IMG/VR virus record: IMGVR_UViG_3300046499_000502
Location: 1 to 64,000 of that record
Source of the DNA: a virus
Reading direction: 5' to 3' (one strand)
DNA length: 64,000 nt
The notes under the pieces are model-generated. The model was given only the letters and a program-made list of their open reading frames with translations. It ran no database searches and was not told the origin of the DNA. Positions 1,620 through 64,000 of this stretch are shown here, piece after piece. The stretch's first letter is position 1; each line of letters opens with the position of its first letter. The translations under genes and the position numbers were made by a program.

Positions 1620-3680
1620 CTACTTGCTGAGGGCCTCGGTGAGCTGCTCGCGGGTGTAGCCGTTCGGGTTGGCCATGCCGTCGAGCGGGCCGAGCTTGCG
1701 GGTTACGCCTGCGCCAGCCTCCCGAAGACGGGCCTGCAGCTCGGGCTCGGTCAGGCCTTGGTAGCGGTCGGGCTGGTCGGTGATCAGCAGTTCCAGCAGC
1801 CGCGAGGTGCGGGCCCGGTCGACGCCGTCGGCGTCGAGGACGGTCAGACAGTTGGTCAGCAGCTCCTTGCGCGCTGCTGTCTCAAGGTCGGCCTTGCCGT
1901 ATTCGGCGGCGAACCCGGTCAGGGTGCCGGCGTCGACGCGCAACTGACGGCCGCGCAGGCAGATCTCGCGGAACTCGGGGATCGTCATGAAGTCGGTCCG
2001 CAGGGTGACATGGCCCTCTTCGCCGCCCTGGTCAAGGACGACGACGCCCTTCTGCGAGTCGAGCAGCATATGGGGTGCGGCGCCCGCAGCTACAGCGTCG
2101 TCGCCGAGGACCATCCGCGAGCTGGCCGCGCCCTTGACTCGGAAGCAGGCCCGCTTGCGACAGACCTCACGCAGCATGGTCGGCACGCTGGTGGCGTCGG
2201 GACGCTGGGTGATGAACAGGCCCATGCCGCCCGCGTACCGGGAGACGCGCACGAACCGGGCCATCGTCTCGACGAGAACGTCCTTGCCGCTGCGCCCGCG
2301 GTCCTTGCTGTCCGGGTCGTCATCCGTCTTGATCTTCATCATGGCGGCGGCGTCCAAGAGTTCCTGCAGCTCGTCCACGATCAGCAGGGTCAGGCCGCGC
2401 TTCCACTTTTTCGCCAGCTCGGGGGTGAGCTTGCCCTCGGGGCACTGCTCCGGGTGCTCCTCAGAGAGCTGCTCCAGGCGCTCACCGATCTGCTGCATGT
2501 CAGCGATCAGTTCATTCAGCAGATCCAAGAAGGCGAGAATCTTCGCAGGGGTGTTGCCAGCAACATAGGAGACGGCGAACTGCTTGGTAGCAGCCCAATC
2601 CGGGCCCGCCTTCCCGGTTGCCACGTGGACCGTCATGTACGGGTCGAGGGCGGCAGCGGCTGCCACCAGCCGGGCCAGGAACGACTTGCCGTAGTCGGGC
2701 AGACCTCCCAGCAGGATGGAGCACCACACCAGCTCCAAGATGTGCCGGCCGCCGCGGGCGTCGGTGCCCAGCGGGACGCCGTACTGCCAGAAGTCCAGTC
2801 GGTCCGCGGTGAGCAGCGGCGAGGGTACCGGCTTGGATCCGTAGGGGTTGGCCTCGTTGGCGACCCACAGCACGAACCGTCCCTCGTGGCCGTCCTCGGA
2901 GAAGTCGGCGTGCATCTCGACCTGGGACTTCTTCACCCTGAGCGCCGAGGCCAGTTCCTCTGCGCGGGAGATGGCGGTGGAGGCTTTCATGCCGCCGGGC
3001 AGTTCGACTGTGGCGGTCCAGCCGGGGCCGGACGGCTGGATGATGCCGACGAGGCGGGTCTCGTCACGCTGGGCGTCGCTGATGATCCCCGACTTGACGA
3101 GGGCGGTGACGAGGTCGGCTTCGCCGAGTACGCGCCCGTCGTATCGCTCGCCGCGCGGCCCAGCCGGCAGCGGCTCCACGCCGGGCTGGCTGCGGTCGCG
3201 GCCGTGGAACGCGCCGAGCCCCCAGGCGCTGAGGCCAGCGACGAGGTCGAGCCACAAGCTGCCGGTGACGGCGCCGAAGCCGACTCCCCCGGCGACCGCT
3301 CCGGACACGCCCGCGGTCTTGCCCAGGAACGCCTTGCGGTGCTGCCTGTAGTCGGCGCGGTAGTCGTCGGCCTTGCGCTTCCAGGTGCCCGCCACATTCG
3401 GGTCACCGGCTGCGTCGCGCACGGCCTGGTCGGCGTCAGCGATCAGCTGCGGGTAGTGGTTGTGGTAGCGCTCGACCCAGCGGCGGCCGAGCTGCCGGTA
3501 GCCGCGGAAGGTGTGCGGCAGCAGGGCCAGGGTGGCGATCCGGTTGGTGGTCTCGGCGACCGTCTTGGCCGACTCGATCCACGTCGAGCGGCCGGCCGCG
3601 GCGTCCTTGAAGACGGGCATCTCGGCGGGCGGCGGGACGAGCGTCAGCGGCGGGCGCTCGTCGGTCAGCGGGGTGGCCAT
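1620..3680 (-). CDS. tra: FtsK/SpoIIIE-like conjugative DNA translocase (TraSA/TraB type)
   Basis: A 686-residue motor ATPase expected to move double-stranded plasmid DNA between mycelial cells as a membrane hexamer. A hydrophobic Gly/Ala/Leu stretch near residues 122-160 is the likely membrane anchor. The FtsK-type Walker A is GGLPDYGKS (about 323-332) and the Walker B is LLIVDELQEL (about 430-440). The last 80 residues look like the winged-helix DNA-recognition domain of this family. The ATG at 3680 overlaps the preceding stop as TGATG. There is no relaxase gene nearby, as is usual for Streptomyces dsDNA transfer. A chromosome-segregation FtsK is unlikely given the length and the Spd neighbour. 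Confidence 0.9.
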   Translation of the reverse strand: MATPLTDERPPLTLVPPPAEMPVFKDAAAGRSTWIESAKTVAETTNRIATLALLPHTFRGYRQLGRRWVERYHNHYPQLIADADQAVRDAAGDPNVAGTWKRKADDYRADYRQHRKAFLGKTAGVSGAVAGGVGFGAVTGSLWLDLVAGLSAWGLGAFHGRDRSQPGVEPLPAGPRGERYDGRVLGEADLVTALVKSGIISDAQRDETRLVGIIQPSGPGWTATVELPGGMKASTAISRAEELASALRVKKSQVEMHADFSEDGHEGRFVLWVANEANPYGSKPVPSPLLTADRLDFWQYGVPLGTDARGGRHILELVWCSILLGGLPDYGKSFLARLVAAAAALDPYMTVHVATGKAGPDWAATKQFAVSYVAGNTPAKILAFLDLLNELIADMQQIGERLEQLSEEHPEQCPEGKLTPELAKKWKRGLTLLIVDELQELLDAAAMMKIKTDDDPDSKDRGRSGKDVLVETMARFVRVSRYAGGMGLFITQRPDATSVPTMLREVCRKRACFRVKGAASSRMVLGDDAVAAGAAPHMLLDSQKGVVVLDQGGEEGHVTLRTDFMTIPEFREICLRGRQLRVDAGTLTGFAAEYGKADLETAARKELLTNCLTVLDADGVDRARTSRLLELLITDQPDRYQGLTEPELQARLREAGAGVTRKLGPLDGMANPNGYTREQLTEALSK

Positions 3681-4156
3681 CAGAGTGTCAGTCCCTTCCA
3701 GGGTGCGGTCTGTTCGATGCGAGCTTGAGTGCGGGCCATACGGCTGTTCGGGAGGGTGTCGCCGCGGACGCGGCGGGGAGGCGTTCCGCCGTTCCTTCGG
3801 CGCCCGTCTGCCGGGCCCGTCACGTGCGGCGAGAGGTAAAGGAGGCCGGCTTGCTGGCAGGCGATGTCCCAGACTTCGCGAGCCGAGATCAAGCCGAGGC
3901 TCGACGTCTCCGTCCACCCGAACTCCCGCATCTCGTTCCGGGTCAGGTAGGGCGGGACGAACAGACGGTGCCGAATCTCGAAGAGAGCCATCTGTTCTAT
4001 CTGTCGAGCGATCCGGGAGTTGGTGACCTCAAGTGCCCGGTAGGGCTCCCATCCGCGCCGGCCGAACTCTTCCAGCCGGGTCGCCGTGGGGGTCGTGTAG
4101 CCGATCTTCACGGCACGGAAGTTGGGGTGGGTGATGACGTAGGTAAGGGCCGTCAT
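3680..4156 (-). CDS. T5orf172/GIY-YIG-like protein with a repeated C-terminal tail
   Basis: A 158-residue protein. Its N-terminus MTALTYVITHPNFRAVKIGY, with later Arg and Glu residues (FGRRGWEP, QIEQMALFEIR), resembles the T5orf172/MUG113 branch of the GIY-YIG nuclease fold. Whether it is catalytically active cannot be judged. Residues 117-145 form a tail (DGRRRNGGTPPRR...GDT) that closely matches the tail of the adjacent membrane protein. It overlaps both neighbours by one to four bases, so it belongs to the tra operon. It may nick or bind the transferred DNA or act as an adaptor; both are inference. Confidence 0.7.
   Translation of the reverse strand: MTALTYVITHPNFRAVKIGYTTPTATRLEEFGRRGWEPYRALEVTNSRIARQIEQMALFEIRHRLFVPPYLTRNEMREFGWTETSSLGLISAREVWDIACQQAGLLYLSPHVTGPADGRRRNGGTPPRRVRGDTLPNSRMARTQARIEQTAPWKGLTL
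3722..3808 (-). repeat. duplicated coding segment, copy 1
   Basis: Encodes residues 117-145 of the T5orf172-like protein. It is similar in DNA and protein to 4198-4284: about 18 of 29 residues are identical, with the shared core NGGTPP and GDT. The two copies lie 476 bases apart in the same orientation. Confidence 0.7.
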
Positions 4157-5463
4157 TCGGACGCCTCCTGCGTGTTACGCGCAGCTGTCTCTCGCCCGAT
4201 CTGCCGCCTCGCTCCTTCGCTGTACGGCTTGGTGTCGCCGGGCCGACGAACGGGCGGCGTGCCGCCGTTGTTGCGGCGCCCATCCGGCGCTTCGGGATCC
4301 CGCTTCTGGCGCCCCTTGATTTGGGATTCGATCAGCGACAACGACCCCAGAACGGGGGCTTCGGTGACGGTCCGCATGTGGGCTTGCGCAGCCTGCGACT
4401 GCGCCTCGATTTCGGCGCGGATTCCGACCGTCTTGCAGCCCGTCACGAGGAGCCAGGCCTCGGCCCAGATCTGCTCGGTGACGTACTGCGAACCGCGGGC
4501 GGAGCGGAGCGCGTCGGCAACCTCCCACACGTCCGGGTGCTGCTCGCGGCGGTCGGTGTCGCGCCGCTGCTGCTCCTCCGCGGCAGCCTGCTCCCGAGCC
4601 GCCTTCTCAGCCGCGGCCTTCGCCTCCGTCTCCGCCTTGGCCTTGGCCGCACTCGCTCGGGCAGCCTCCTCGGCTTCAGCCTTCTTCTCTGCCGCCCGCC
4701 GCTCCCGCCACGACGGGATCCCATCAGCTTTCTGGGCGATGCCGTGCTCGTAAGCCATCAGCACGATCGGCCCGCCGAGGGAGGCGATAGCGCCGATCAG
4801 GCCGGCGTTGAAGCCGATCCGCGGGTCGGACAGGCCGCCGTACATGTTGATCCCTGCGGCGATCGCGGCGCCGAGCATGATGCCGACCCGGTAGGGGGCG
4901 ACATCCCGCCGGTGGGCGACCGCCCACGCGGCACCGAACGCAAGGACGAGGGCGAGGCCTTCGAGGAGCGCAGGCGCAGCAATCAGGAACGGGCGGGCCC
5001 GGTCCCAGAAGTGCATGAACTGCACCGGCGCGGCGATGATCAGGCCGACCGCGTAAATGCCGCGGGCGCCCCACCTCCACCAGCGCTCGCTGCGCTCCTG
5101 CTCGGCCAGCTGCTGCGCCTCCCGCCCGGCCTCCTCCTTCTCCGCCTTCTCGGACTTGGCCTGCTCGGCGTTGTGCTTCGCCGTCTCGGCAGCCTTCTTC
5201 GCGAGGGCGGCCAGGTGGTCGGCCTTCTCCTTCTCCAGCCGCATCGCGGCGCGCTCGTTGGCGATGCGCTCCTTCTCGGCCTTCTCGACGGCGAGGATCT
5301 TCTCGGCCTCGGCCTTGCCCGCCGCCTCGGTGCGCAGGGCGTCGGCTTCGGCGGCGGCTCGGGTACGGATCGCCTCCGCCTCGGCCAGTGCGCGCGGGTC
5401 AAATCGCGGCTCGGGCGAGGTCTTCGGCGTGCCGTTGACCTTTTCGACGGATACGGCGGTCAC
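4153..5463 (-). CDS. spdB: SpdB-like (DUF2637-type) membrane protein for plasmid spreading
   Basis: A 436-residue protein. Residues 25-125 form an Ala/Glu/Lys-rich helix, probably a coiled coil. Four transmembrane segments follow at about 134-152, 158-182, 192-210 and 218-238. A second charged helix covers about 250-310, and then comes a soluble C-terminal region ending in the duplicated tail. This architecture matches Streptomyces SpdB/DUF2637 proteins, which help intramycelial spread of conjugative plasmids and cooperate with the Tra motor. GTG at 5463 was chosen because it follows the previous gene with a normal gap; longer versions are Arg/Pro-rich junk. Confidence 0.85.
   Translation of the reverse strand: MTAVSVEKVNGTPKTSPEPRFDPRALAEAEAIRTRAAAEADALRTEAAGKAEAEKILAVEKAEKERIANERAAMRLEKEKADHLAALAKKAAETAKHNAEQAKSEKAEKEEAGREAQQLAEQERSERWWRWGARGIYAVGLIIAAPVQFMHFWDRARPFLIAAPALLEGLALVLAFGAAWAVAHRRDVAPYRVGIMLGAAIAAGINMYGGLSDPRIGFNAGLIGAIASLGGPIVLMAYEHGIAQKADGIPSWRERRAAEKKAEAEEAARASAAKAKAETEAKAAAEKAAREQAAAEEQQRRDTDRREQHPDVWEVADALRSARGSQYVTEQIWAEAWLLVTGCKTVGIRAEIEAQSQAAQAHMRTVTEAPVLGSLSLIESQIKGRQKRDPEAPDGRRNNGGTPPVRRPGDTKPYSEGARRQIGRETAARNTQEASE
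4198..4284 (-). repeat. duplicated coding segment, copy 2
   Basis: Encodes residues 394-422 of the Spd-like membrane protein (DGRRNNGGTPPVRRPGDT onward) and matches the tail of the next gene at 3722-3808. Confidence 0.7.
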
Positions 5464-5495
5464 GGGGATCGGTGTCCTCTCGGGTCTCGGGTCGG

Positions 5496-5702
5496 TTAGG
5501 CGGTGGCGGGCTGGATGACGACGGTCCGGCGGTGACGCAGCCAGACGGCGCCAGCAGCGAACACCCAGAGGTAGGTGGGCACCAGGCCGGCGAGTACGGC
5601 CAGTCCGGCGAAAGCGAGGGACACGGGCGCTGCGGCGGCGTGCCACAGGCCGATCGTGACCAGGTAAGCCGCGAGAAACAGCCAGAAAACGGTGCGGAGC
5701 AT
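5496..5702 (-). CDS. small two-helix membrane protein (Spd-like)
   Basis: A 68-residue protein with two hydrophobic helices (about residues 5-24 and 28-52) and a short basic C-terminus. It lies directly upstream of the SpdB-like gene, where Streptomyces conjugative elements often carry small Spd membrane proteins. No enzymatic motif is present. Confidence 0.7.
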   Translation of the reverse strand: MLRTVFWLFLAAYLVTIGLWHAAAAPVSLAFAGLAVLAGLVPTYLWVFAAGAVWLRHRRTVVIQPATA

Positions 5703-6332: not shown

Positions 6333-6578
6333 TCAGGCGGCGGCCGGGTAGTCGAAGCCGTCGAACTCGTCGACCAGCTGCGGGTCGAACGCGGCAGCGT
6401 GGTCACGGATCAGCGCCATCTGGCCGACGTCGCCGCCGGAGCGGGCCGCGAGGTAGTCGTCGATCAGGGTGGCCGCGTACTCGTCGTGCGCATCGGCGAC
6501 CGTGATACGGGCCCGGCGCAGCGCAGCGAGATCCGTCTTGGTGGCCAGATCGGCGTCGGAAAGGATGAACGGAGACAT
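6333..6578 (-). CDS. small acidic hypothetical protein
   Basis: An 81-residue acidic, mostly helical protein (MSPFILSDADLATKTDLAAL onward). Function unknown. It is the last gene before a long hairpin at 6639-6678 that could partly separate it from the genes upstream. Confidence 0.6.
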   Translation of the reverse strand: MSPFILSDADLATKTDLAALRRARITVADAHDEYAATLIDDYLAARSGGDVGQMALIRDHAAAFDPQLVDEFDGFDYPAAA

Positions 6579-6638
6579 GGGGGATCACGGGACCTTTCAG
6601 GTCATGGGGTTGCGTGGGGGTGATGCGGGGGTGGGGCA

Positions 6639-6678
6639 CCGCGGGCGGAGACGGGGGGGGTTGTCGACCCGCCCGCGG
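6639..6678. terminator. inverted repeat inside the transfer operon
   Basis: CCGCGGGCGG at 6639-6648 pairs with CCGCCCGCGG at 6669-6678. It lies between the 28-codon gene at 6692-6778 and the gene at 6333-6578. It could be an attenuator or a processing site; there is no T-run. Confidence 0.35.
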
Positions 6679-6691
6679 CGGTCTTGGGGGT

Positions 6692-6778
6692 CTAGCGGGG
6701 CCGGTTCTCGCTGCGCTTGTTGGCGTCGGCGACCTTCTTCGACAGCTCGGCGCGCTCGGCGTCGGTCAGGCGGGTCAC
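6692..6778 (-). CDS. 28-residue peptide, translationally coupled
   Basis: GTG at 6778 overlaps the previous stop as GTGA and reads VTRLTDAERAELSKKVADAN plus eight residues to TAG. It is highly charged and helical. The coupled start and the operon position are the main support. Confidence 0.5.
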   Translation of the reverse strand: MTRLTDAERAELSKKVADANKRSENRPR

Positions 6779-6945
6779 GACGCCACCTCCTCGTCCGAAG
6801 CGATGACGAGGAACCGGTCGTTACGGATGTCCTGCACGACGGTCACCGGGATGCCCTGGTCGCGGAACGTCTGCGCCTGCTCCTCCGCCGGGAACTGGCC
6901 GCGGGGGTGGCCGGCCGGGGACTCGGCGAGAACCTTGCGGGCCAT
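6775..6945 (-). CDS. small hypothetical protein
   Basis: A 56-residue protein, MARKVLAESPAGHPRGQFPA onward, with an alpha-beta pattern ending in EEVAS. Its start overlaps the previous stop (TGATG) and its stop overlaps the next start. No known domain. Confidence 0.6.
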   Translation of the reverse strand: MARKVLAESPAGHPRGQFPAEEQAQTFRDQGIPVTVVQDIRNDRFLVIASDEEVAS

Positions 6946-7124
6946 CACACGCCCCCGGCCTCGTCGAGCATCTCCAGCAGCTGCTGCAGCACAACCTCCA
7001 GGCGGCCGATCATGCGAGCCATCGCCCGGTCGTCCGCCATGTCCAGCTGCTCAACAGCGGCCAGTTCCCGGCGGGCGGCCTCGATCCGGTAGCGGTCGTG
7101 GTCCGTCAGGTCGATGCGGCCCAT
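6945..7124 (-). CDS. small helical hypothetical protein
   Basis: A 59-residue helical protein, MGRIDLTDHDRYRIEAARRE onward, with heptad-like Leu spacing near the C-terminus that suggests dimerisation. Its start overlaps the preceding stop. Function unknown. Confidence 0.6.
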   Translation of the reverse strand: MGRIDLTDHDRYRIEAARRELAAVEQLDMADDRAMARMIGRLEVVLQQLLEMLDEAGGV

Positions 7125-7585: not shown

Positions 7586-7845
7586 GCCGTCACCGCCTTG
7601 GACCACCAGCGGCGCTTCGCCGGCTTCACCGGCTCACGCAGCGCAAGCGCCTCGTAGTAGAAGGACTCGTGCAGGCGGCCCACGAACATCCAGAGCTCCT
7701 CGGACGGCACCTTCGCCGCCAGCTCCATCAGCTCATCGGCCATCTCGCCAAACGTGCGGGCGAGCACCTCACGGTCGCCGGACTCCAGGGCGGAGGCGAG
7801 GGAAGCGAAGTGGGCGGTGGGGGTGGTGGGGGTCGCGGTGGTCAT
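7582..7845 (-). CDS. small hypothetical protein
   Basis: An 87-residue, largely helical protein (MTTATPTTPTAHFASLASAL onward) with a basic C-terminus (KPAKRRWWSKAVTA). It overlaps both neighbours by four bases. I recognise no family. Confidence 0.65.
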   Translation of the reverse strand: MTTATPTTPTAHFASLASALESGDREVLARTFGEMADELMELAAKVPSEELWMFVGRLHESFYYEALALREPVKPAKRRWWSKAVTA

Positions 7846-8084
7846 GCCGCCTCCTCGGTAGCGGGCTGAGTGGTGGTGCGGACGGCGGCGCTGTCGAGGA
7901 ACGCGGCGAGCGCGGCCTCGGAGACGCGGAACCGGGGGCGGCCGTGGCCCTTGGCGATGTCGATCGCCTCGATGCGGCCGGACTTGATCAGTTCACGCAC
8001 GTGCTGCGGGGTGCCGCCGATGCGTATGGCGACCTCTCCGGTGGTCAGGTAGCCGCCCGTGGGGGCGACGGAGACAGGCGTCAC
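7842..8084 (-). CDS. MerR/excisionase-type helix-turn-helix protein, first gene of the transfer operon
   Basis: An 80-residue protein with the HTH_17 pattern: YLTTGEVAIRIGGTPQHVRE, then LIKSGRIEAIDIAKGHGRPR and a short C-terminal helix. Such proteins act as excisionases or architectural regulators. Its position directly after the operator cluster at 8135-8166 makes it the first product of the transfer operon. It could be the Xis of an integrative element whose integrase lies outside the window, or a local regulator. Confidence 0.75.
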   Translation of the reverse strand: MTPVSVAPTGGYLTTGEVAIRIGGTPQHVRELIKSGRIEAIDIAKGHGRPRFRVSEAALAAFLDSAAVRTTTQPATEEAA

Positions 8085-8134: not shown

Positions 8135-8166
8135 GCTCTAGAGCAAAGCAAGTGCCCTAGAGCAAG
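8135..8166. promoter_or_regulatory. Kor-type operators of the transfer operon
   Basis: The palindrome GCTCTAGAGC at 8135-8144, followed by AA, and a half-match CCTAGAGCAAG at 8156-8166. They lie upstream of the transfer operon's first gene. The same element recurs at the start of the GntR gene and in the divergent promoter at 9091-9100, which points to one repressor controlling all three. Confidence 0.7.
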
Positions 8167-9006: not shown

Positions 9007-9100
9007 CATCTAGAGCAACGCTACCTGCTCTACATCTCCGCTGGTCAATGGGTGCCGCGGCCCGACATTGCGGACAGGGTGGCTTTGATTGCTCTAGAGC
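9007..9100. promoter_or_regulatory. divergent control region with Kor-type operators
   Basis: TCTAGAGCAA at 9009-9018 sits at the upstream edge of the repressor gene. A half-site TGCTCTA lies near 9025-9031. The full palindrome GCTCTAGAGC at 9091-9100 is preceded by TT. This region should drive the repressor leftward and the gene at 9184 rightward. Confidence 0.65.
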
Positions 9101-9183
9101 GGTACGGTTCTTCGTAGTCGGGGTGTGACAGTGAGCACACCTCGGGTTGGGGACACCCCTGTCTATCCGCTCGAAGGGAACCC

Positions 9184-9747
9184 ATGGCCGACATTGAGCG
9201 CACCGCGCTCTACCGCTACCTCGACGCCGACGGACGCCCCTTGTACATCGGGATCACGGGCGACGTGAAGCAGCGCAGGGAGTCGCACGCAAATAGCCGT
9301 TGGGACCAGGAGGCCACCGACTACAGAGTCGAGTGGCACGACACGCTCGCAGACGCGCTAGCTGCCGAATTCAATGCGATCAAGTCCGAGAAGCCGAAGT
9401 ACAACCGCGCCCACAACTTCGGCGACATCACACTGGGCGACGTGGACTGGCCGTCTCTCGCGACGGACAACCGCACGAAGGCGATACTGCTCGCCGAGTT
9501 CATGCAGAGCGAGATCGACAGCGGGCGCTGGCCTGTTGGCTATCGAATCCCGGGCCCCCATGAGCTGGCCGCCCGGGCGGATGTAGGGCCCGGCACCGCG
9601 ATCTCCGCCGTGAAGAAGCTCACCAACCGGCGATACGCCTACCTCCGCCGGGGGTTCGGGCACTTCGTGCGCATGCCGCCCCCACGGCCGAGTTCCCGCC
9701 GTTCCGTCCACCGTTTCGACCTTCGGGGCGCTGCTCGGGACGGGTAG
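9184..9747 (+). CDS. GIY-YIG nuclease domain fused to a GntR-type winged helix
   Basis: A 187-residue protein. The GIY-YIG core spans residues 8-78: Y10, LYIGIT at 20-25, Arg31, a likely catalytic Glu62 (AEFNAIK) and Asn74. Residues 101-163 match a GntR-type winged helix (LLAEFMQSEIDSGRWPVGYR, then PHELAARADVGPGTAISAVK). A nuclease tethered to a repressor-type DNA-binding domain suggests site-specific cleavage, perhaps at the Kor operators that flank its own promoter. That target is inference. It is the only plus-strand gene of the module and is divergent from the repressor. Confidence 0.8.
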   Translation: MADIERTALYRYLDADGRPLYIGITGDVKQRRESHANSRWDQEATDYRVEWHDTLADALAAEFNAIKSEKPKYNRAHNFGDITLGDVDWPSLATDNRTKAILLAEFMQSEIDSGRWPVGYRIPGPHELAARADVGPGTAISAVKKLTNRRYAYLRRGFGHFVRMPPPRPSSRRSVHRFDLRGAARDG

Positions 9748-10173
9748 CGCATCCTATCGCCTCTGCCAAACCGCGCGTTCCTGCTGGTGGGAGGGCGTTC
9801 CCGCGGAGGCTGGTTCGTAATCCGGTGGCCGGGCCGGCGTCTGGTTTTGATCTAGCGTCGTTTCTGGTCGCGCCATCACCGTCGAGTTTCGGTCTTCGGC
9901 TCGACTTCGCCTACCTGCGGTGATCCCGGAGGGGGTGCAGGGGGTGTACCGCACAATGATCGGATAGACCCCGCGACCTGCAAAGTCGCTGGTCAGCCCC
10001 ACTCTATGGCAACGACTGTTGCCGATGCTTGATCCAGTCTGCGGCGTCATCGGCTGCGGCAAGCTGGACCTGAAGACGCGAACGGCCGGGCGCTACCAAC
10101 GCCCGGCCAGTTCATCAACCAGCGGTGTCCGCCGCTGATCCGCAATCCGTCTCTCCAGAAAGGGACTACATCC
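9748..10173. other. 426-bp intergenic region
   Basis: No convincing gene. It holds small inverted repeats: GGCAAC/GTTGCC around 10008-10023, GCGAC/GTCGC near 9978-9994, and a strong hairpin GGCCGGGCG...CGCCCGGCC at 10084-10108. The last could end transcription or shape the leader of the next gene. Confidence 0.5.
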
Positions 10174-10632
10174 GTGACTGTAGCAACCCCCGAGCCTGCC
10201 GTCGCCTCGCCCGACGCTCCCCGAACATGGTCGTTCGTGAACCGTCACACGGGTCGCCCGCAGACCGTCACCTGTATGGCCGGCTGTACCCGCGACCACT
10301 CGTCCGACGAGGGCTCGCCGGCGGCGCCGGAGGACATCTGGTGCTGGTTTTGGTCGGATCCGCTGACGCTGCCGGTGAATGAGAACGGTGAGCCGGAGGA
10401 GTTCAAGGTTCTCGACACGGTGGTCAAGGTGGAGCCGTGGTCTCCGAAGATCGCCGAGCGGCTGCCCTACGCCGTCATCGAGCTGGTCGACGACCACTTC
10501 ATCGACGGCCTGGACCCTGACGGTCTGGCCACGGTGATCCGCACGCTGTCTGACCGCCTGGAGCAGATGCGAGAGACGCACGCGCGCCTGGTCGCGGTCC
10601 GCTCCGACTACATGTCACGGACGCGTCCCTAA
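10174..10632 (+). CDS. DUF6907-like protein
   Basis: A 152-residue protein with a small Cys/His cluster (TCMAGCTRDHSS), a W-rich stretch (DIWCWFWSD) and a helical C-terminus. This pattern matches the DUF6907 proteins common in Streptomyces chromosomes and integrative elements; function is unknown. The GTG at 10174 follows AAAGGGAC. It is the first of four plus-strand genes that converge on the early phage region. Confidence 0.75.
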   Translation: MTVATPEPAVASPDAPRTWSFVNRHTGRPQTVTCMAGCTRDHSSDEGSPAAPEDIWCWFWSDPLTLPVNENGEPEEFKVLDTVVKVEPWSPKIAERLPYAVIELVDDHFIDGLDPDGLATVIRTLSDRLEQMRETHARLVAVRSDYMSRTRP

Positions 10633-16448: not shown

Positions 16449-17201
16449 TTAGGCGGCCTCGGTGTCGCCGTCGGGCTGCACGGAGGCGGCTGAAAGCCAG
16501 GGGAGGCGGACGAACTCGAAGTGGTTCTCGAAGTCGCGGTAGAGCGTGGATTCGTTGGCGCCGCCGCAGGCTGGGCAGCGACGCAGGCCCGCTCCCTCGA
16601 CCCAGGTCGCGCGGGCGCAGCCGGAGCAGCGCGTCAGCCACGAGTTGTGGCGCCGGGTCGACGTCCAGCGGATGAAGCCGCCGTGGCGCCGTGCGAGCTT
16701 GGCTTTGGAGCGGCCGGGCCAGTGGCGGTAGTCGTCGTGGGTCCACGGGTCGATCGGTGTCGGCGGGTGGCCGACGATGACCATCTCGCCGCCGGGCCAG
16801 TCGCACGTGCAGGCGAGGGGGTCGCAGTCGCAGGCGAGCATCTTGCCGAGCTCGAAGGCCTTCTCGATGCGGGGAATGCCGGGGCCTTTGACCTCGAGCC
16901 AGACGCCTATCTCGGTGAGGTGGAAGTCGGGGAGGTACTTCACGCCGGAGTCGAGCTGGAAGGTCTGGGGCTCGTACTCCCAGGTGATGTGGAGGGAGTC
17001 GAGGGTTGCTGCCCAGCAGGCTTCGAGCAGGGAGCGGAACTGAGTGCCGCGGTAGATCGTCGGGAGGGCTGTGATGCCGGGCTGGCCGTCGGCGTCTTCG
17101 TCCGATGTCCGGGCTCCGCGCAGGTTCGCGGTCGCCTCGCGGTCCTCGCACTCCTGGATGAGGCGCTCGAGGTACGCCTCCCAGTTGTTGTACTCGTTCA
17201 C
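16449..17201 (-). CDS. PD-(D/E)XK nuclease with C-terminal zinc ribbon
   Basis: A 250-residue protein. YRGTQFRSLLEACWAATLDS at 50-69, YLPDFHL at 89-95 (catalytic Asp92) and WLEVKGP at 101-107 (Glu103, Lys105) form the restriction-endonuclease-like active site. A CSGCARA...CPACGG zinc ribbon lies near 195-220. It is adjacent to the replicative helicase, so a role in replication-intermediate processing or host DNA degradation is plausible. Its start overlaps the helicase stop. Confidence 0.8.
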   Translation of the reverse strand: MNEYNNWEAYLERLIQECEDREATANLRGARTSDEDADGQPGITALPTIYRGTQFRSLLEACWAATLDSLHITWEYEPQTFQLDSGVKYLPDFHLTEIGVWLEVKGPGIPRIEKAFELGKMLACDCDPLACTCDWPGGEMVIVGHPPTPIDPWTHDDYRHWPGRSKAKLARRHGGFIRWTSTRRHNSWLTRCSGCARATWVEGAGLRRCPACGGANESTLYRDFENHFEFVRLPWLSAASVQPDGDTEAA

Positions 17202-18520
17202 CAGATCGCTCCTGTCTCGCTGTAGCCGCTGAACTGGTCGGCGTCGATGGGCTTGTAGGAGATCCAGGGCCAGCGCTCGCCCTGCTTGATGAAGTTCGGC
17301 CAGTCGCGTTCATCGCGGCTGCCGCGCCAGGGGACGACGCGACGGCCGCGGGCGCCTTCGACGTTCTGTGCCGACTTCTCGTCCTCGACGGGGCGCAGGC
17401 CGAAGCCGAACTCGGGCCAGCGCATCCAGAGGCTGGAGCCGAGCGGGCGAAGTGAGCGCGGGCCCATGTTGTTGCCATGGGGGGCGTGGGCTTCCATCAG
17501 GACGGTGCAGCCAGCGGTGGCGCGGGCTTCGTCGATGACGACGGAGACTTTGCGGGCGAGCTCTTCGTCGTTGGGGTTGCCGGCGTGGAGCCGATAGACG
17601 GGCCCGATGATCAGCACGTCGGGCTTGATCTTCTCGACGCGGCGCATGGTCCACGCCCGGTCGGACGGCCTGGTCAGGTCAAGGCCGGAGGGGCGGCATT
17701 CGATGTGGAACTGGCCGCGTCGCACCGGTTGCTCGAGGCTGTCCGCGGCGGCGAGCAGGGGCCGGAACTTGCGGCGGGAGGCCGCCTCGCCGTTCTCGCA
17801 GTCGAGGGTGAGCACTCGGACGGGGTCGATCGTCTTCCAGGTGTCGAACGGATGGATGCCGGCGGCGAGAGTCACGGACAGCTGCCGTAGCAGAGTCGAC
17901 TTGCCGCCGCCTTCGGATGCGGTGAGGATCAGCCGGTCTTGCCGCTCGAGCAGGCCGGGCACGACCCAGTCGTAGACGTCCTCCTTCTTGACGAAGTCGA
18001 GGATGTCCTCGACGGGAAGATCTTCGGAGGCCATGCCGCGGTCGCGGAGTTCACGGGATTCGGCGACGACCCGCTCGATGAGGTTGCTGGTTTCGCCGGT
18101 GGTGCTGTAGCCGGCCTGCACGGTGCGGGTGCCGAGCTCGATGAGCGACCTGCGTAGGCCGCGGTCTTGGACGATCTCGGCGTAGTACTCGCCGTTGGCG
18201 GCGGTGGGCACGGCGCGAACGAGCTCGTACAGGTATGCGGCGCCTCCGACGCGGAGGAGATCGCCGGTGTCGGCAAGGTATTTGCCGAGGGTGATCTGGT
18301 CGACGGACAGGCCTCGCGAGTCCATGTGGAGAATCGCGGCGAAGATCACCTGGTGGCGGGCCTGGTAGAAGGCCGCGACTTCGACGGCGTCTCGGATTTC
18401 GGCGAGCGCCTTCTTGGAGAGCAGGCAGGCGCCGAGGGCGCCCTGCTCGGCTTCGAAGTCCTGCGGCGGGACACGCTCGAGCGGGATGTCCGCGAAGTCG
18501 GGCTCGAGATCGGTGGTCAC
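17198..18520 (-). CDS. replicative helicase: DnaB N-terminal domain plus RepA-type AAA ATPase
   Basis: A 440-residue protein. Residues about 15-120 match the DnaB N-terminal domain (PPQDFEAEQGALGACLLSKK). The C-terminal ATPase resembles RepA/AAA_25, with Walker A SEGGGKST at 202-209 and a Walker B-like PDVLIIGP near 300-310. It is the probable fork helicase. The GTG at 18520 abuts the stop of the initiator-like gene, the usual initiator-helicase pairing of phages. Confidence 0.85.
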   Translation of the reverse strand: MTTDLEPDFADIPLERVPPQDFEAEQGALGACLLSKKALAEIRDAVEVAAFYQARHQVIFAAILHMDSRGLSVDQITLGKYLADTGDLLRVGGAAYLYELVRAVPTAANGEYYAEIVQDRGLRRSLIELGTRTVQAGYSTTGETSNLIERVVAESRELRDRGMASEDLPVEDILDFVKKEDVYDWVVPGLLERQDRLILTASEGGGKSTLLRQLSVTLAAGIHPFDTWKTIDPVRVLTLDCENGEAASRRKFRPLLAAADSLEQPVRRGQFHIECRPSGLDLTRPSDRAWTMRRVEKIKPDVLIIGPVYRLHAGNPNDEELARKVSVVIDEARATAGCTVLMEAHAPHGNNMGPRSLRPLGSSLWMRWPEFGFGLRPVEDEKSAQNVEGARGRRVVPWRGSRDERDWPNFIKQGERWPWISYKPIDADQFSGYSETGAIW

Positions 18521-36241: not shown

Positions 36242-36505
36242 ATGGCCGTAGATCCCGATGCGCAGATTGACCACGAGGGTCCTGTCACCCCGTACCGGCA
36301 GCTCGCCGAGATCCTGAAGGCCCGGATCGCGCGCGGCGACTGGGCCGACGGCAGGCCGATCGCGTCGGAGACGCGGCTGTTGCAGGAGTACGGGCTCGCC
36401 CGGTCCACGGTGCGGCGGGCGATCGCCGTGCTCGCCGAGGAGCAAGCCGTGTGGACGGTCCAGGGGCGCGGCACCTATGTGGGACAACCGCCCGCCGAGG
36501 GCTGA
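36242..36505 (+). CDS. GntR-type winged-helix protein without effector domain
   Basis: An 87-residue protein that is a GntR DNA-binding domain only (PYRQLAEILKARIARGDWAD, then SETRLLQEYGLARSTVRRAI and GRGTYVG). The missing FCD/UTRA domain makes it a minimal repressor. It probably binds the palindrome just upstream. Confidence 0.82.
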   Translation: MAVDPDAQIDHEGPVTPYRQLAEILKARIARGDWADGRPIASETRLLQEYGLARSTVRRAIAVLAEEQAVWTVQGRGTYVGQPPAEG

Positions 36506-38069: not shown

Positions 38070-38081
38070 GTAACCAAGGTA

Positions 38082-38097
38082 GCCAATCTAGATTGGC
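38082..38097. promoter_or_regulatory. 16-bp operator palindrome
   Basis: GCCAATCTAGATTGGC is a perfect palindrome 13 bases before the start of the gene at 37899-38069, in an AT-rich patch. It is the likely binding site for one of the small HTH proteins nearby. Confidence 0.6.
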
Positions 38098-39730: not shown

Positions 39731-40747
39731 TCAGAGCCCGATGTCTTCGCTGGCGGCGTCGGTCCACTTGTCGGCTTCGCGGATGTAGCCCCAGAAGGCG
39801 GGGCTGTTCTCGGCGTGGCCGGACTGGGCGCGGATCTTCTCCTCGCGCTTGCCTGCGATCCTCGAGGTCGTGATGAACCCGGCCCGCATGGAGTGGCCCG
39901 TCAGCCGGACGGCGATCCCGGCGCGCTCCGCGTTCCGGGCGATGATCTCGCGGCAGGCTTCGGGCGAGAGGCTCCTCGAGCCGACGTTGCCCCATACGTC
40001 GATGGGCAGGAAGGCGGGTCCGCTCGTGATGACGCTCGAGGACTTCCAGGTGGACCAGGCGCGGACGGGGCAGGTGTCGGGGTTCTTGCCGTAGGCGACG
40101 ACGACGTCTCGAGCGGGGCGGCCTTTGACGGAGGGGACGTGTACCTCGAGGCCCATGCTCGAGAGGACGATGCCTTCGACGGTGAGCGCGGCGACTTCGG
40201 CGGATCGGCCTGCGATGCCGAAGGCCATGAGCCATAGGGCGCGGTCGCGGAGGCCGGTCAGGCTCGAGGGTGCGGCGGCGCTCATCTTCCGCAGTTGCTC
40301 GGCGGTGGCTGCTGGGGCTTGCCCGCGTCCTCGAGCTTGGCGTTCGGGGTCGAGCTTGAGCGGCTTGAGGGCTTGGCGGGCGGCGACAGTGGCGGCCTTG
40401 GGGACTTCGACGCCTTGGCCTCGAGCGGTGACGGTGACGCCGGTGATGCGGCGGTCGATGCTGTTGGGTGCGGCGAGTTTGATGGTGTCGAGCCAGACGA
40501 CGAATCCGACGAGCGTGCCCTTGGTTACGGCGGTCAGCGGCAGCGGCTGTCCGGTGCGTTCGGCGAGCCAGTCGTGGAACTCTTCCCAGAGTGCCCAGTC
40601 GTTGGCGTAGCCGCGCTTCGTGTTGTGGGGGCGGATGGCGTCGAGGTGTTTCTCGGCTGCCTCTTCCATGGCGGCCAGAACAGCGAGCGTCGCAGCGTCG
40701 TAGGCGGCGGGGGTGGCGTCCGGCTGGCGCGGGGCGAGGTCGGTCAT
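39731..40747 (-). CDS. second tyrosine recombinase
   Basis: A 338-residue recombinase. A core-binding domain (about 35-110, HNTKRGYANDWALWEEFHDW) precedes a catalytic domain with Arg181, Lys208, His285-x-x-Arg288 (GHSMR), His311 (SGH) and Tyr321 (FWGYIREAD). All catalytic residues are present. It resembles element-borne recombinases more than classic phage integrases. It may resolve dimers, mediate a second integration or serve a captured element. Nine CTCGAG sites cluster inside it. Its start overlaps the preceding stop. Confidence 0.87.
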   Translation of the reverse strand: MTDLAPRQPDATPAAYDAATLAVLAAMEEAAEKHLDAIRPHNTKRGYANDWALWEEFHDWLAERTGQPLPLTAVTKGTLVGFVVWLDTIKLAAPNSIDRRITGVTVTARGQGVEVPKAATVAARQALKPLKLDPERQARGRGQAPAATAEQLRKMSAAAPSSLTGLRDRALWLMAFGIAGRSAEVAALTVEGIVLSSMGLEVHVPSVKGRPARDVVVAYGKNPDTCPVRAWSTWKSSSVITSGPAFLPIDVWGNVGSRSLSPEACREIIARNAERAGIAVRLTGHSMRAGFITTSRIAGKREEKIRAQSGHAENSPAFWGYIREADKWTDAASEDIGL

Positions 40748-49630: not shown

Positions 49631-51094
49631 TCACCCGAAGTCGTAGAGGGCGATCGCCAGCAGTGTGGAGAATGCGGCGGCGAGGTCGGCGAGGGTCGAG
49701 TAGTTGTCGGCGATGTCCTGGAGTGTGAATCCTGCGGCCTCCATGACGTCGGGCCAGTCGTCGGCTTTGACGACGTCGAGGGTGAACCAGCGGAATTCGT
49801 CGTACCAGGTGGGTGCCTCGTTGTCGGAGAGCAGGGCGTAGGTGCCGTCGAGGCGGCTCATTGACGTCTGCTTGCGGACGAGGATGACGCCTTCGGTGGC
49901 GTTGTCGAGGATCCCGTTGAGGGCGTCGCCGTCCTCATCGGTCTCGGTGCGCACGCTGATGGATGAGGACGGCGCGGACCGCGGGCGTCCCACGACGACA
50001 ATCCGGCCGCCGACGTTGAACTGGGTAGCGTCGCGGTCCCTTTTTTTCTCCAGAGGCGATTCGATTTTCACGGCGGCGCCGACACCGCGGATGGCGTCCG
50101 AGACGACGTCGCTGGTCACCGTGGACGTAATCGGCCCGGAGTACGCGGTCCACTGCTGGCCGTAGACGTCGGTGAGGATGGCCGCATAGTTCAGCGAGAT
50201 CCCGAACGGCTGCTCTGCGTCCACGCGCAGGAACGAGGACTGCCCTGTGACGTCGATGCCGCTGGCCGCGCGCACAGGGATGAGGTCGGTGCCGACCTGC
50301 CGGTAGAGGGTGATGGTGGTGATGTCGTCGGCGGTCAGGCCGGTCGCCGCTACGAGGTTGCGGGGCGGGAACACGGACTGCGGGGTGGCGTTGACGTCGC
50401 TGGACGCCTCCCGGACGCGCAACACGCTGGCAACCCCTGTCGTGGCGGTTGAGAGGGTCGCTGTGATGGTAGGCGCCATCGTGGCCGGGCCTGCGGTTAC
50501 TGACGCGCTGGCCGCTCCGGTGCGCGCTCCGTTGCCCGTCGCCGCCGCGGCGGAGAACCGGCCGACCGCCGTATCGAAGGTGACACCTGCCGCGGAGATG
50601 CCCACCGTCGGAAACCCGTCGGTCGACACCGGCAGGCCATACCCCCACCATGCAAAGTCGCCGGGAGCCCAAGTCAGGGCGGTAGTGCAAGGTGCCGAGA
50701 ACGCGGTGCCGGAGGTGGTGTCCTCGGCTGCCGCAAAGGCCCACCGCCAGCCGGTGCCCGCCGAGCGGGACAGTAGGGCGATCGTGCCTGCGATGACGGA
50801 GCCCGTGCCCCCGGAGGGGATGGAGGTGGTGGGCCCGGCGTCCCCGCCGATCATCTCGCGCACAAATATGGTGATCCTGCGCGGCCCCGTCCCGACCCCG
50901 AGTGTTCCGCCGCCCCCGGAGAACGATCCGGCGAGCGTCCAGCCCGACGGCGTGGACGGGATGCTGAGGTTGGGGTGCGAGGAGATAACCTGCAGAATTC
51001 CGAGCTGGCCGGCCGATGGGGTCGCGGAGTAGGACGGCGTGACGGTGTTCGCGTCGACCGCCGTTCCACCCTGACTGAGGTACGAGATCGTCAC
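49631..51094 (-). CDS. minor tail protein
   Basis: A 487-residue protein. The N-terminal 230 residues are Ser/Thr/Gly-rich beta structure (GGTAVDANTVTPSYSATPSA onward). The C-terminal half includes RIVVVGRPRSAPSSSISVRT and a distal-tail-like end. It is next to the tape measure gene, the usual place of the distal tail or tail-associated protein, and overlaps it by four bases. Confidence 0.77.
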   Translation of the reverse strand: MTISYLSQGGTAVDANTVTPSYSATPSAGQLGILQVISSHPNLSIPSTPSGWTLAGSFSGGGGTLGVGTGPRRITIFVREMIGGDAGPTTSIPSGGTGSVIAGTIALLSRSAGTGWRWAFAAAEDTTSGTAFSAPCTTALTWAPGDFAWWGYGLPVSTDGFPTVGISAAGVTFDTAVGRFSAAAATGNGARTGAASASVTAGPATMAPTITATLSTATTGVASVLRVREASSDVNATPQSVFPPRNLVAATGLTADDITTITLYRQVGTDLIPVRAASGIDVTGQSSFLRVDAEQPFGISLNYAAILTDVYGQQWTAYSGPITSTVTSDVVSDAIRGVGAAVKIESPLEKKRDRDATQFNVGGRIVVVGRPRSAPSSSISVRTETDEDGDALNGILDNATEGVILVRKQTSMSRLDGTYALLSDNEAPTWYDEFRWFTLDVVKADDWPDVMEAAGFTLQDIADNYSTLADLAAAFSTLLAIALYDFG

Positions 51095-54000
51095 CGCCGC
51101 CCCACCTTCGCCCGGTACGCCTGCCAGCCCTCGGACGCCTTGATCTTCGGTTTGACCTGGACGTCGATGAGGTCGCGCAGCCGGTCGTCGTTGAAGTGGA
51201 CGTGAACGTCAGTGCCATCACGGTTTTCCAGTGCGAGGGCAACCCGCTCCCACAGCGCGTTGTCGCGGGAGTTCGCGGAGGTCGCCGCGGTCGGGACGTA
51301 GCGGCGGCGCACGGAGACGCCAGACGCCGTGTCGGCGAGGCGTTGGGCTGCTCCTCCGGCGAGGTGGCTGTGCAGGTCCATGCCGTGGACCATGCCGAGG
51401 ACGACCTGCTTGCCGACCTCGTCACGGAACACCCCGGACGGGCTCTTGATCTTCAGAGCCTTCTTGATGGCCTTCACGAGATCGGTGGCGAGCTTGTCGA
51501 TCTGCTTCGTGAGAGCCTTCTCCTGCGACTTCAGGCCTGCGAGGAATCCCTCGCCAGCATGCTTGCCACTGTCGTACATCATGTCGGCCATGTCCTGGCC
51601 GAAGGATGTCGCCAGCTTCCCGCCGGACGCCACCAGGCCGTTCAGCTTGGTGATGTCCTGGGTGGTGACGTTCTTGTCGCCGAGAATGTTCGCGAGCTGA
51701 CTGCCCGGTCCGGCGTCCGACAGTTGCTGAAGCAGTGCCTTGCTGGCACCGCGCGCCTTCAGCGACTTCGTCAGCGACACGAAGTTGCTCGCGGTCTTCT
51801 GCTGGCCGCTCATCTGCGAAATGAGGCCGCCAATGTCGGTGGCCGATGTTCCGGAGATGGACAGGAAGTCGCTGATGTTCGACGCCTGATCCGATGCGTA
51901 CTGCATGGCCGCGGCGATGGTCTTCTCAATCGAGGCCCGCTTGTCGACGAGCTTCTCCAGCTTGTCGCCCGACTTCATGACCGTCTTGGACAGCTTGTCG
52001 AATCCGGCGTTCAGGAGCTTCGCGTTGAGGCTCTTGAGCGCCGAGGCGATTGCCGACGAGGTGCCCGCCGTCAGCGTCTTCAGCAGGCCGTTCTTGATGG
52101 TCGTGGCGATCGACGTCTTCGCGCTGCGCCTCGCGTTCTTCAGTGATATCTCCGCAGCCTGCAGCTCCTTCTCGGCAGCCTTCAGTCGCTTCTCCGCCGC
52201 CTGTACGCCTTTGTGTCGCCGCTTGGCGCGAGCGAGATCGCCCTTGGCGTCCCCCACTTTCCGCTTGTCGCGCCGCACCCGGTCCGCGGCGTTGGTGATG
52301 GTGCCGGACGCGTACCCGGGCAGTTTGATCCCGTTGGCCTTGGCGAACGCCATCGACTGCGGGTTGGACATCACGTCCTCGCCGCCCTTGAAGTTGACCA
52401 GCTCCGGGCCCTTTTCGCCGACCCAGGCCAGGCCCTTCGCGGCGCCGCCCGTGCCCTTGGCGTACCAGTGCGGCGAGCGGGCGAGCCACTGGCTGTAGGC
52501 GTTCAGCGGGCTGCCGTAGCGTTCGGCAATGTACGACAGACCCCACTTGATCTGCGTGGAGGCGTTCGTCTTCCAGTCCGAGCCCGCCGAGCCCATCTTG
52601 CTCGCCGGCAGCGACTGCGGGATGCCATACGCGCCGCTGCTCTTGTTCAGTGCGCGCTCGTTCCAGCCCGACTCGCCGTTCCACAGGTTCTTCAGGGCAG
52701 CCCACTGTGGGCCGGACCAGCCGCGGGCAGCCGCGAGCGCCTCACCGATCTTCTGGTTGGCCGACGACCCTCCGCCGCTTCCACCCAGACCGAGCAGGCC
52801 GAGCAGGTCACCCCCGAGGCCCCCAAGCGCCTTGAGGGCCTTGCCGGGTAGCTTGGTGATGCTGACCAGGCCCTTCTTGACGATCGACCCGAGCGCCTTC
52901 GGAAGGGAGCCGAAGACCTTCTTCGCGATGGCCGTGCCCGACGTCTTGGCCATGCCCTTCATGAGGCCGGTAACCAGGTGACCGCCGATACCCATGAACA
53001 CGCGGCTGGGTGACCGGATGCCGAAGAAGTGCTTCACCGCGTTGACGACGGGATCGACGATGGTCTTCTTGATCCAGGAGCCGATTCCCTTCATCGTCCC
53101 GACGATCCCGGTCTTAAAGCCGGAGATCAGCGAGCCGCCCTTGCTCACGAGCCAGCCGCCCGCCTTCGAGAACCGGCTCAGGACCGGGCTGGCGATATGG
53201 GAGTACGCCCACGACCCGATCGCCTTGGCGCCGACGCTGACGCCCGACTTGAAGCCGCCGACGAGAGCACTACCCTTGCCGATCAGCCACCTTCCCGATC
53301 GAGCCATCCAGTTGGCAATGGGCGCCAGGATGTGGTCGAACACCCAGCCGCCGATCGCTTTCGCGCCGGTACTGACGCCGCTCCTGAAGCCGGAGACGAG
53401 AGCGCTACCCTTGGACAGCAGCCACGACCCGGCACGCTTGAAGGCTCCGACGACCGGGTCGATAACCCACTTCTTGCCGAAGCCCCCAATGGCCCGGCCG
53501 CCCCGGGCCACGCCGCTACCGAAGCCCCGTGCGAGGTCGGCGCCCTTGCCGAGTAGCCAGCTGCCAGCCTTGACGAAAGGCTTCACGACGAGGCCGACGA
53601 TCTCGCCGACTTTCGCGATGACCCAGCCGGCTCCATCACGGATGCCGTTGCCCAGGAAGTGGATGGCGGCCTTGCCTTTGTCCAGCAGTTTGAGGCCCCA
53701 CACGCCGATACGCGTGGTGAGCAGCCCGGTCTCGCGCTCGATGATTTTTGCGCCCTCAGGGAAGACCCGGGCGAGCCCCTTCCACAGGCTCGTGCCGAAG
53801 AACTTTACGACCTTGCTGAAGGCGCGCGAGATCGGCCCGGTCAGACGATCGATGCCGCGGAGCATCGGTGCGAAAATCTTGAGGATCGGGATCCTCGAAA
53901 TGATCCTTTCAAGCGGTCCGGCGATCTTCCCGACACCCACGAAGGACAGCGCGGCGACGACCGTGTCCCACCAGTGCTTCTTCCAAAAATCGGCACTGAA

Positions 54001-58016: not shown

Positions 58017-58478
58017 CTAGCGGCCGCTGTACGCGTCGCAGGACACCTCGAACACGACGACTGCCTGCGCGCCCTTGGTCGTCTGGTCCATGGTCAGACT
58101 GTGCGACGAGATCATCGCTCGCATCACGCTGCCGCCGAGCTGTCGGTTCGCCGCGATAGCCTCCCCGGCCTCGCGGAGCAGCTCATAGGCGCGCCGCCGG
58201 GCGACGGCAACACCGTCCCCGCCGATCAGGACCGCCGTTGCGCAGCGGATGGTGAACTGCTCACGGTCGATCGAGCCCCCCATGCCCTCTGTCAGCAGGG
58301 TGGACTCGGCGTCCGTGCCATCGTCGCCGCCGGTGTAACCGACCGACACGATCTCCTGCACGGTCGCCTGAGACGTCGACGGCCCGTCCCGCACCGTCAC
58401 GCCGGCCAGTCCGGGCCACGCAGTGAACGCGGCAACGAGAGCATCCATCGCGGCCGGAAGCCGGGACGTCCACACCAT
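58017..58478 (-). CDS. tail terminator-like protein
   Basis: A 153-residue protein, MVWTSRLPAAMDALVAAFTA onward, ending TTKGAQAVVVFEVSCDAYSG. An alpha-beta fold of this size between connector and tail tube genes fits the tail terminator that caps the tube. Its ATG overlaps the preceding stop. Confidence 0.75.
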   Translation of the reverse strand: MVWTSRLPAAMDALVAAFTAWPGLAGVTVRDGPSTSQATVQEIVSVGYTGGDDGTDAESTLLTEGMGGSIDREQFTIRCATAVLIGGDGVAVARRRAYELLREAGEAIAANRQLGGSVMRAMISSHSLTMDQTTKGAQAVVVFEVSCDAYSGR

Positions 58479-63464: not shown

Positions 63465-63485
63465 GGGTGTGGACTCCTCGTCCGG

Positions 63486-63501
63486 TCGAAATCGATTTCG
63501 A
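63486..63501. promoter_or_regulatory. 16-bp palindrome upstream of the capsid gene
   Basis: TCGAAATCGATTTCGA is a perfect palindrome 22 bases before the capsid start, within a 274-base gap (63465-63738) that holds no other gene. It may be an operator or part of a capsid promoter or leader. Confidence 0.5.
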
Positions 63502-63738
63502 ACGGGGAGCCCTCGCGGTCCCGCACCCCGTGGGGTGCCGGCGGCCGGCGCCTTTTCGCAACCGGCGGTCCGCTGATCCCTTCCTCGTGTCGCATCCATC
63601 CCGTTGTGTGCTTCACCGCGCCCAGAGTGGACACCGACCGGGAGATCCCAAGTCGGCGCCGTGGCGGCGCGACTACGCGGTCCAAGGATGAAATGCCGCC
63701 CTCGCGTAACGAGGGGCTTCAGGGGCGAGGCAAATGCC

Positions 63739-64000
63739 TCAGACGTAGGGGTCTTCCTTGCGACCCAGAAGGACCGCGGCCGCGGCCGGACCGAACATCC
63801 CCTTGCGACCGACCTTCTTGGGCTGCGGGCCATCCGTCCGGACGAAGAACTTTCGGAGCTCGTCCGCGTCGGCCAGCGAGCGGACCTCTTCCAGGTCGGC
63901 GCTGAACTTGTCCGCCAGTGACCGCAGACCTGCGGTGCTGTCCGGGTAGGCCGGCGTGTTGACCGGGGCGACGTCGACGAGCTGGACGCCCGTCAGCCGG
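63739..64000 (-). CDS. prohead protease, C-terminal part
   Basis: The open frame enters at the right edge and ends at 63739. RLTGVQLVDVAPVNTPAYPD matches the C-terminal part of the HK97 prohead protease family, where VSPVxxPAYP is typical. It sits directly upstream of the capsid gene, as expected. The catalytic residues lie beyond the window. Confidence 0.85.
   Translation of the reverse strand, partial: RLTGVQLVDVAPVNTPAYPDSTAGLRSLADKFSADLEEVRSLADADELRKFFVRTDGPQPKKVGRKGMFGPAAAAVLLGRKEDPYV

Follow-up and report, generated by a model that had tools for sequence, protein, structure and literature searches.

The gene at 9184..9747 of the window (the whole stretch of DNA analyzed here, 64 kb of a virus record of 70,334 bases, or 70.3 kb, with 68.6% G+C) encodes a GIY-YIG nuclease joined to a GntR-type winged helix, and it lies beside a repressor gene in a position that, as read from related genomes, is an exchangeable nuclease slot. 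We consider it somewhat probable that the protein serves homing or competition as a free-standing GIY-YIG endonuclease, in which the GntR-derived winged helix would be the DNA-targeting part. In the best reading of its surroundings, the nuclease appears to be under the control of the repressor rather than aimed at the repressor's operators.

The element is a tailed and probably temperate phage, as genes for the following proteins are present:

17198-18520, DnaB-like helicase
39731-40747, tyrosine integrase
51091-55734, tape-measure protein
62163-63833, major head protein

Its actinobacterial host is probably Streptomyces or a close relative, because the nuclease and part of the tape-measure protein both point there.

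The nuclease ORF shows the distribution of G+C over codon positions that is expected of a genuine gene, and its product was divided as follows:

9184..9747, + strand, GIY-YIG nuclease with a C-terminal GntR-type winged helix, 187 aa (Pfam, PHROG and structure model)
9196..9420, + strand, GIY-YIG catalytic domain, residues 5-79 (PHROG 16880, E 4e-13; UvrC GIY-YIG, Z 10.3)
9472..9687, + strand, GntR-type winged helix, residues 97-168 (Pfam, structure match and contact-residue alignment)

In the window ORF, the only Pfam matches at E<=1 were GIY-YIG (residues 9-74, E 1.2e-3) and GntR (residues 109-162, E 7.7e-4), both below the curated cut-offs; relatives with the same domain order (L049, L057, and L061; L numbers are our own handles) were above the cut-offs for both domains. 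PHROG 16880, which matched the ORF with E 4e-13, is annotated as "endonuclease," and the C-terminal half of the protein matched PHROG 10724 (E 4e-8), the family to which the neighboring repressor itself belongs. The AF2 model, built with nine sequences, had a mean pLDDT of 83.9, with values of about 90 or above in most blocks of both domains, and a pTM of 0.58, which leaves the mutual orientation of the two domains unfixed. Comparison of the model with VIA-align matched residues 5-79 to the GIY-YIG domains of UvrC (Z 10.3) and residues 82-170 to GntR winged helices (Z up to 12.8), so that a separate DNA-binding module is carried on the same chain. No UTRA domain was matched by Pfam in the window ORF, in which only about 20 residues follow the winged helix.

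The nuclease residues named in the preliminary description of this DNA (Y10, Y21-I22-G23, R31, E62, and N74) could be read from the sequence at exactly these numbers. Y10, Y21, G23, R31, E62, and N74 were invariant in alignments A2 and A4, and the catalytic residues were all retained among nuclease relatives sharing 35%-45% identity; alignment A1, with six rows, gave no usable pattern. The same description had proposed a fusion to a repressor-type winged helix and named profile searches as the check, and these found the similarity (Pfam GntR, E 7.7e-4; PHROG 10724, E 4e-8). As profiles, the structure model, and relatives support both domains, we regard the two-domain fusion of an intact GIY-YIG domain and a GntR-type winged helix as real at the level of sequence and model.

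The suggested family search for this architecture and its context recovered L033, L034, L049, L057, and L061 as well as proteins of Streptomyces plasmids. In the plasmid collection, the fusion was found in S. canus NBC_01002 (41% identity) and S. tubercidicus NBC_00625 (39% identity), and also in NBC_01240. Four Streptomyces plasmids of 85-92 kb (pSLE1, NBC_01483, QHH-9511, and NBC_01369), which may be phage-plasmids, carried other GIY-YIG proteins 3ʹ of a GntR gene, with one or two small genes in between. A scan of genome contigs with the single window protein returned only UvrC-like proteins (L001-L009, from alphaproteobacterial and other MAGs) and no fusion, and a viral-contig scan with the S. 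tubercidicus relative as the query gave no matches. In MulchRoom, a Streptomyces phage satellite, GIY-YIG and GntR are named as separate predicted genes (PMC10690885), and the literature search made for Streptomyces, phage-plasmid, and GntR in combination found no publication.

Scans of the viral collection with an alignment of the repressor yielded twelve loci, namely L033, L034, and ten new ones (L066 being truncated), and the position beside the repressor was readable in twelve elements: the window, L033, L034, L055, L057, L059, L060, L061, L062, L063, L064, and L065. The repressor family was kept in all twelve, with 64%-80% identity to the window repressor, and GCTCTAGAGC-type sites occupied corresponding places in eleven, the sites of L062 being variant. 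The slot itself contained:

GIY-YIG with GntR winged helix: window, L033, L034, L057, L061
GIY-YIG alone: L062, L064
Endonuclease VII-type HNH protein (Pfam, E 1e-14): L055
No nuclease, the promoter being followed by a hairpin and a small conserved gene: L059, L060, L063, L065

The tally of five, two, one, and four elements, respectively, is one of mutually non-independent elements, most of whose IMG/VR records are incomplete, prophage-derived, or of unknown completeness. A nuclease gene of its own in an intergenic position is thus present as GIY-YIG in seven elements, replaced by HNH in one, and absent from four, between conserved flanks. Because unrelated nuclease families occupy one position, we conclude from these sequence comparisons that the position beside the repressor is an exchangeable nuclease slot. 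It is bounded on the left by the predicted repressor-controlled rightward promoter and on the right by a hairpin:

10084..10108, + strand, hairpin GGCCGGGCG-CTACCAA-CGCCCGGCC, right boundary of the slot, a conserved block
10174..10632, + strand, DUF6907 protein, the first gene past the slot, also replaced (28% identity between the window and L033)

The hairpin block directly follows the nuclease on its 3ʹ side in L033, L055, L057, L061, and L064, and the window has an extra 0.3 kb of DNA between the nuclease gene and this block. Downstream of the slot in L055, L057, L059-L061, and L063-L065 a conserved protein is encoded that is small, with some 95-100 aa, and has the motif LLDAPLxxLLAE; this protein had no Pfam match in the two examples tested. 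T5orf172/MUG113-type nucleases are encoded in L059 (4791-5606, - strand) and L063 (4937-5440, - strand) by the second gene after the rightward promoter, the first slot being nuclease-free. In L057 (4909-5844, - strand), the GIY-YIG domain is fused to a complete GntR-UTRA protein of 311 aa, and this long fusion perhaps preceded the shorter one.

The repressor region of the window has the following features, the operator sites being given without strand:

7842..8084, - strand, excisionase-like HTH protein, gene 1 of the leftward operon (HTH_17 3e-7, TIGR01764; 90% identical in L033)
8135..8144, perfect operator GCTCTAGAGC between the repressor gene and the leftward operon, its place kept in relatives
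8154..8163, operator copy GCCCTAGAGC with one mismatch; a similarly spaced second site occurs in L034, L055, L057, L059, L060, and L064
8230..9009, - strand, GntR/HutC-type repressor with UTRA domain, 259 aa (Pfam UTRA 4e-20, GntR 8e-19)
9009..9032, TCTAGAGC site (9009-9016) and inverted half-site GCTCTA (9027-9032), covering the start codon of the repressor and a -10-like hexamer, TAGCGT
9091..9100, perfect operator GCTCTAGAGC just 5ʹ of TACGGT, the -10-like hexamer of the rightward promoter (9103-9108); both recur, with variants, in all 12 elements

Two perfect copies of GCTCTAGAGC were observed in the 64 kb against 0.05 expected, and none of 100 shuffles had two. A NagR/YvoA relative matched the window repressor (E 1e-14). 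The operator of the HutC subfamily is GTMTAKAC (PMC4494728), and GCTCTAGAGC keeps G-5 and departs from the HutC-type operator solely at position 4 of each half, where G is changed to C. In NagR, Arg38 reads G-5 and Arg48 reads G-4 (PMC4333415), and all 12 repressors of the group have Arg38-[Gln/Leu/Ala]48-Arg52 in NagR numbering. Since the altered residue 48 is the reader of the altered base, the GCTCTAGAGC sites can be assigned with good confidence to the GntR-UTRA protein as their likely reader, and this repressor and its sites are clearly of the NagR/DasR kind (GntR/HutC; PMC4333415, PMC4494728). In every one of the 12 elements, the operator lies just before a TAnGnT hexamer of the rightward promoter (with variants in L033, L062, and L064), whether or not a nuclease follows, which is a normal position for a repressor site. 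At the repressor start, a 24-bp sequence, TCTAGAGCAACGCTACCTGCTCTA, was identical in the window, L033, and L034 and near-identical in the other elements, and the TCTAGAGC site and half-site over the start codon suggest autoregulation. The start codon, read from the sequence, lies 8 bp from the TAGCGT hexamer (9007-9032), and the repressor mRNA may for this reason be leaderless and autoregulated. This predicted GntR-UTRA/GCTCTAGAGC repressor–operator pair could be used for the study of lysogeny in these little-studied phages.

The nuclease gene moves independently of this repressor and its operators. Between the window and L033, protein identity was 90% for the excisionase-like protein, 67% for the repressor, and 88% and 87% for two downstream proteins, whereas it was 41% for the nuclease and 28% for the DUF6907 protein. 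The nuclease genes of L033 (1550-2124) and L049 (6000-6574) share 92.2% DNA identity, and their homologous block begins 1 base ahead of the start codon and ends 16 bp beyond the stop; upstream of it, the 50-bp blocks were 22%-32% identical, the 200 bases being unrelated, and the two repressors share 28% identity. Our case for independent movement is that a 92%-identical, gene-bounded copy sits in L049 beside an unrelated repressor and without GCTCTAGAGC. The grouping of operator-associated nucleases as one clade was also rejected (p-AU 6e-5 for five and 9e-4 for three), in a test whose groups were set by the operators and before which the L033/L049 relation had been seen. Furthermore, L049 is 85%-90% identical in DNA to the leftward operon of the window, and therefore repressor regions differ among phages of the same kin. 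The end of the window nuclease gene together with the adjoining DNA (9678-9870) resembles the DNA that follows the nuclease in L049 (75% over about 200 bases), and L049 looks as if a window-type nuclease gene had been overwritten by a newer gene. As dN was 0.054 and dS 0.196 in the L033/L049 nuclease pair (dN/dS 0.28), the protein has been under purifying selection while moving.

A single gene that is present, absent, or replaced, that moves, and that keeps its active site is what has been described for free-standing homing endonucleases and for nucleases at exchange boundaries, and for this reason we favor a homing or competition enzyme. Other phages are known to carry free-standing GIY-YIG and HNH endonucleases between their genes and to have nuclease genes where regions of genetic exchange are bounded (PMC2988022, PMC10448857). 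Repression, cleavage, target, and homing are inferred in the following scheme. By binding GCTCTAGAGC, the GntR-UTRA protein would repress its own expression as well as the leftward excisionase operon and the nuclease-led rightward operon. The position of the operator suggests that the nuclease would be kept low in the lysogen and released on induction or infection; once repression is lifted, by induction or by entry into a cell with a related phage, the nuclease would be made. Its winged helix would bring it to a site other than GCTCTAGAGC, and it would cut related genomes that have no copy of this nuclease allele, whereupon the cut genome would acquire the gene through recombination or the rival would be removed. 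So short a winged helix may be insufficient alone for site-specific cutting. Homing usually co-converts flanking DNA, whereas the exchanged block seen here keeps closely to the ORF and could have been produced by ordinary recombination.

This favored reading has its closest parallels in SegA-SegG of T4-like phages and the intron-encoded I-TevI, which likewise join a small GIY-YIG domain to a modular DNA-binding domain with HTH; enzymes of the Seg/I-TevI type are also intergenic and present or absent between related phages, with sibling HNH enzymes in comparable positions. The DNA-binding part, in contrast, is a GntR-type winged helix here and a linker, zinc finger, and HTH in I-TevI, and the gene described here lies in the repressor region of a temperate phage, under repressor operators, with cleavage and homing being putative. 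The homing-type T5orf172 nucleases and HEG-islands of ICP1-like phages (PMC10448857) are similar in that modular nucleases with shuffled domains occupy places of exchange, and the T5orf172-type nucleases in the next position of L059 and L063 overlap with that system; they differ in that a cargo island is found there, whereas a classical GIY-YIG enzyme occupies a single-gene slot in temperate actinobacterial phages here. A homing-type nuclease would thereby be tied to the repressor region, the part of a temperate phage genome where competition is strongest, and the occupied, empty, and other-nuclease alleles in otherwise matching phages are ready pairs for distinguishing homing, exclusion, and borrowed repressor domains.

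The same data fit a prophage-encoded weapon without homing, that is, an interference nuclease that destroys incoming rival phages or plasmids and is not mobile through its own cutting. Interchangeable nucleases in a slot of the immunity region agree with this reading, which we regard as possible and on the unlikely side. In a sharper form of it, the winged helix would derive from the repressor of another immunity type and lead the nuclease to the operators of that rival phage. The GntR-UTRA part of the L057 nuclease did score 98 bits with the other-immunity repressors L017 and L050 against 66 bits with its own type, its recognition helix TSNVTVQRGLRIL has 11 of 13 residues in common with TSNVTVQRALTIL of L050, and the resident repressor was the best repressor match for no nuclease of the GCTCTAGAGC group. 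A precedent of this type is Odn, the chimeric nuclease of ICP1, as discussed in PMC10448857: there, too, a nuclease is joined to a DNA-binding domain from a family of mobile-element regulators or initiators, the domain being that of a satellite replication initiator in Odn and that of a GntR repressor, with a target only putative, in the slot nucleases. However, the best repressor matches of the window, L033, and L034 nucleases were weak (42-46 bits) and not decisive, and the winged helix of the window protein has lost all three base-contact arginines. It is a rather doubtful proposal that these winged helices come from other-immunity repressors and make the nucleases operator-directed weapons, which would cut the repressor sites of a rival and spare the carrier, with the slot as an armoury in which repressor type and target are swapped separately. 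Assignment to a known defense system was dropped, as there was no convincing PADLOC match (best E 0.0065).

According to the preliminary description, operators flank the nuclease gene and the enzyme could be aimed at these sites of its own element, where it would start transfer, control copy number, or attack related elements. The sites are real and next to the gene, but they flank the GntR-UTRA gene (8135, 8154, 9009-9032, and 9091) and not the nuclease gene, which has one operator upstream only (9091, 83 bp away) and none downstream. A GntR-type winged helix and an operator at this distance speak for such an aim, and autorepression through binding to its own promoter is known for I-TevI (PMC2988022). 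However, the sites fit the adjacent repressor, and they persist in related phages without a slot nuclease (L059, L060, L063, and L065). Conversely, GCTCTAGAGC was absent, up to one mismatch, from the 75-kb record of L049, whose nuclease shares 88% protein identity with that of L033; the winged helices of these two are near-identical, and only one of the two genomes has GCTCTAGAGC sites. Although the nuclease has the winged-helix fold in common with NagR and DasR, it differs from them in having no UTRA domain and no base-contact arginines: in the window protein, His-Pro-Ile stands at the NagR contact positions 38/48/52, the Arg being lost at all three, and the residue combination of the repressors at these positions was found in 0 of 10 nuclease winged helices. 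Cutting at these sites would also break the phage's own repressor region. Because the contact residues differ, the operators outlast a missing nuclease, and the L033/L049 pair separates the two, targeting of GCTCTAGAGC is disfavored; the operator, residue, and mobility tests led us to reject it as the leading idea, and we hold it to be highly unlikely. No support was found for the proposals that the nuclease starts transfer or controls copy number; attack on related elements is possible.

That the protein is a second transcription regulator, retaining an old nuclease domain but acting mainly through DNA binding in the early region, would suit its GntR winged helix and the additional UTRA sensor domain in L057; we give this very little credence, as all catalytic residues are kept across 35%-45% identity, some slots hold a GIY-YIG protein without a winged helix or an HNH nuclease, and a regulator is not expected to be freely absent or replaced. 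It is hardly credible that the protein is a methylation-dependent (type IV) restriction enzyme reading N6-methyladenine like Ahi29725I and Apa233I (PMC11037411), which also combine GIY-YIG and a winged helix in one chain, since these cellular enzymes have the reverse order, with a DpnI-like winged helix first and the nuclease last, whereas here, in a phage immunity slot, GIY-YIG (9-74) precedes a winged helix (109-162) that is GntR-type by profile. The matches listed in the structural comparison of the model did not include the DpnI winged helix, an outcome that such a fold would also allow.

Several further features of these elements were recorded. Two minus-strand genes of the window are unusual for a phage: one encodes an FtsK/SpoIIIE-like protein (1620-3917; PHROG 1358, E 2e-20), and the ORF upstream of it (4153-5646) resembles, by eye, the DUF2637 proteins of Streptomyces plasmids and had no Pfam match; L049 contains DNA 86% identical to most of this ORF. 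In L049, at 6545-7000, a partial copy of the slot hairpin, GCGAACGGCCGGGCGC, comes right after the nuclease and the full hairpin about 430 bp further on, with a remnant of a window-type nuclease in between. A tRNA-Gly (tcc) call in the late structural region (58408-58493, - strand) overlaps an ORF and may be a false positive. The window also encodes a second GntR protein of 87 aa, consisting of the winged helix only (36242-36505, + strand; PHROG 10724, 6.7e-17). Between two minus-strand ORFs, at about 38081-38096, lies the perfect 16-bp palindrome GCCAATCTAGATTGGC, which is centered on TCTAGA like the operators, has other flanks, and is perhaps meant for another GntR protein.
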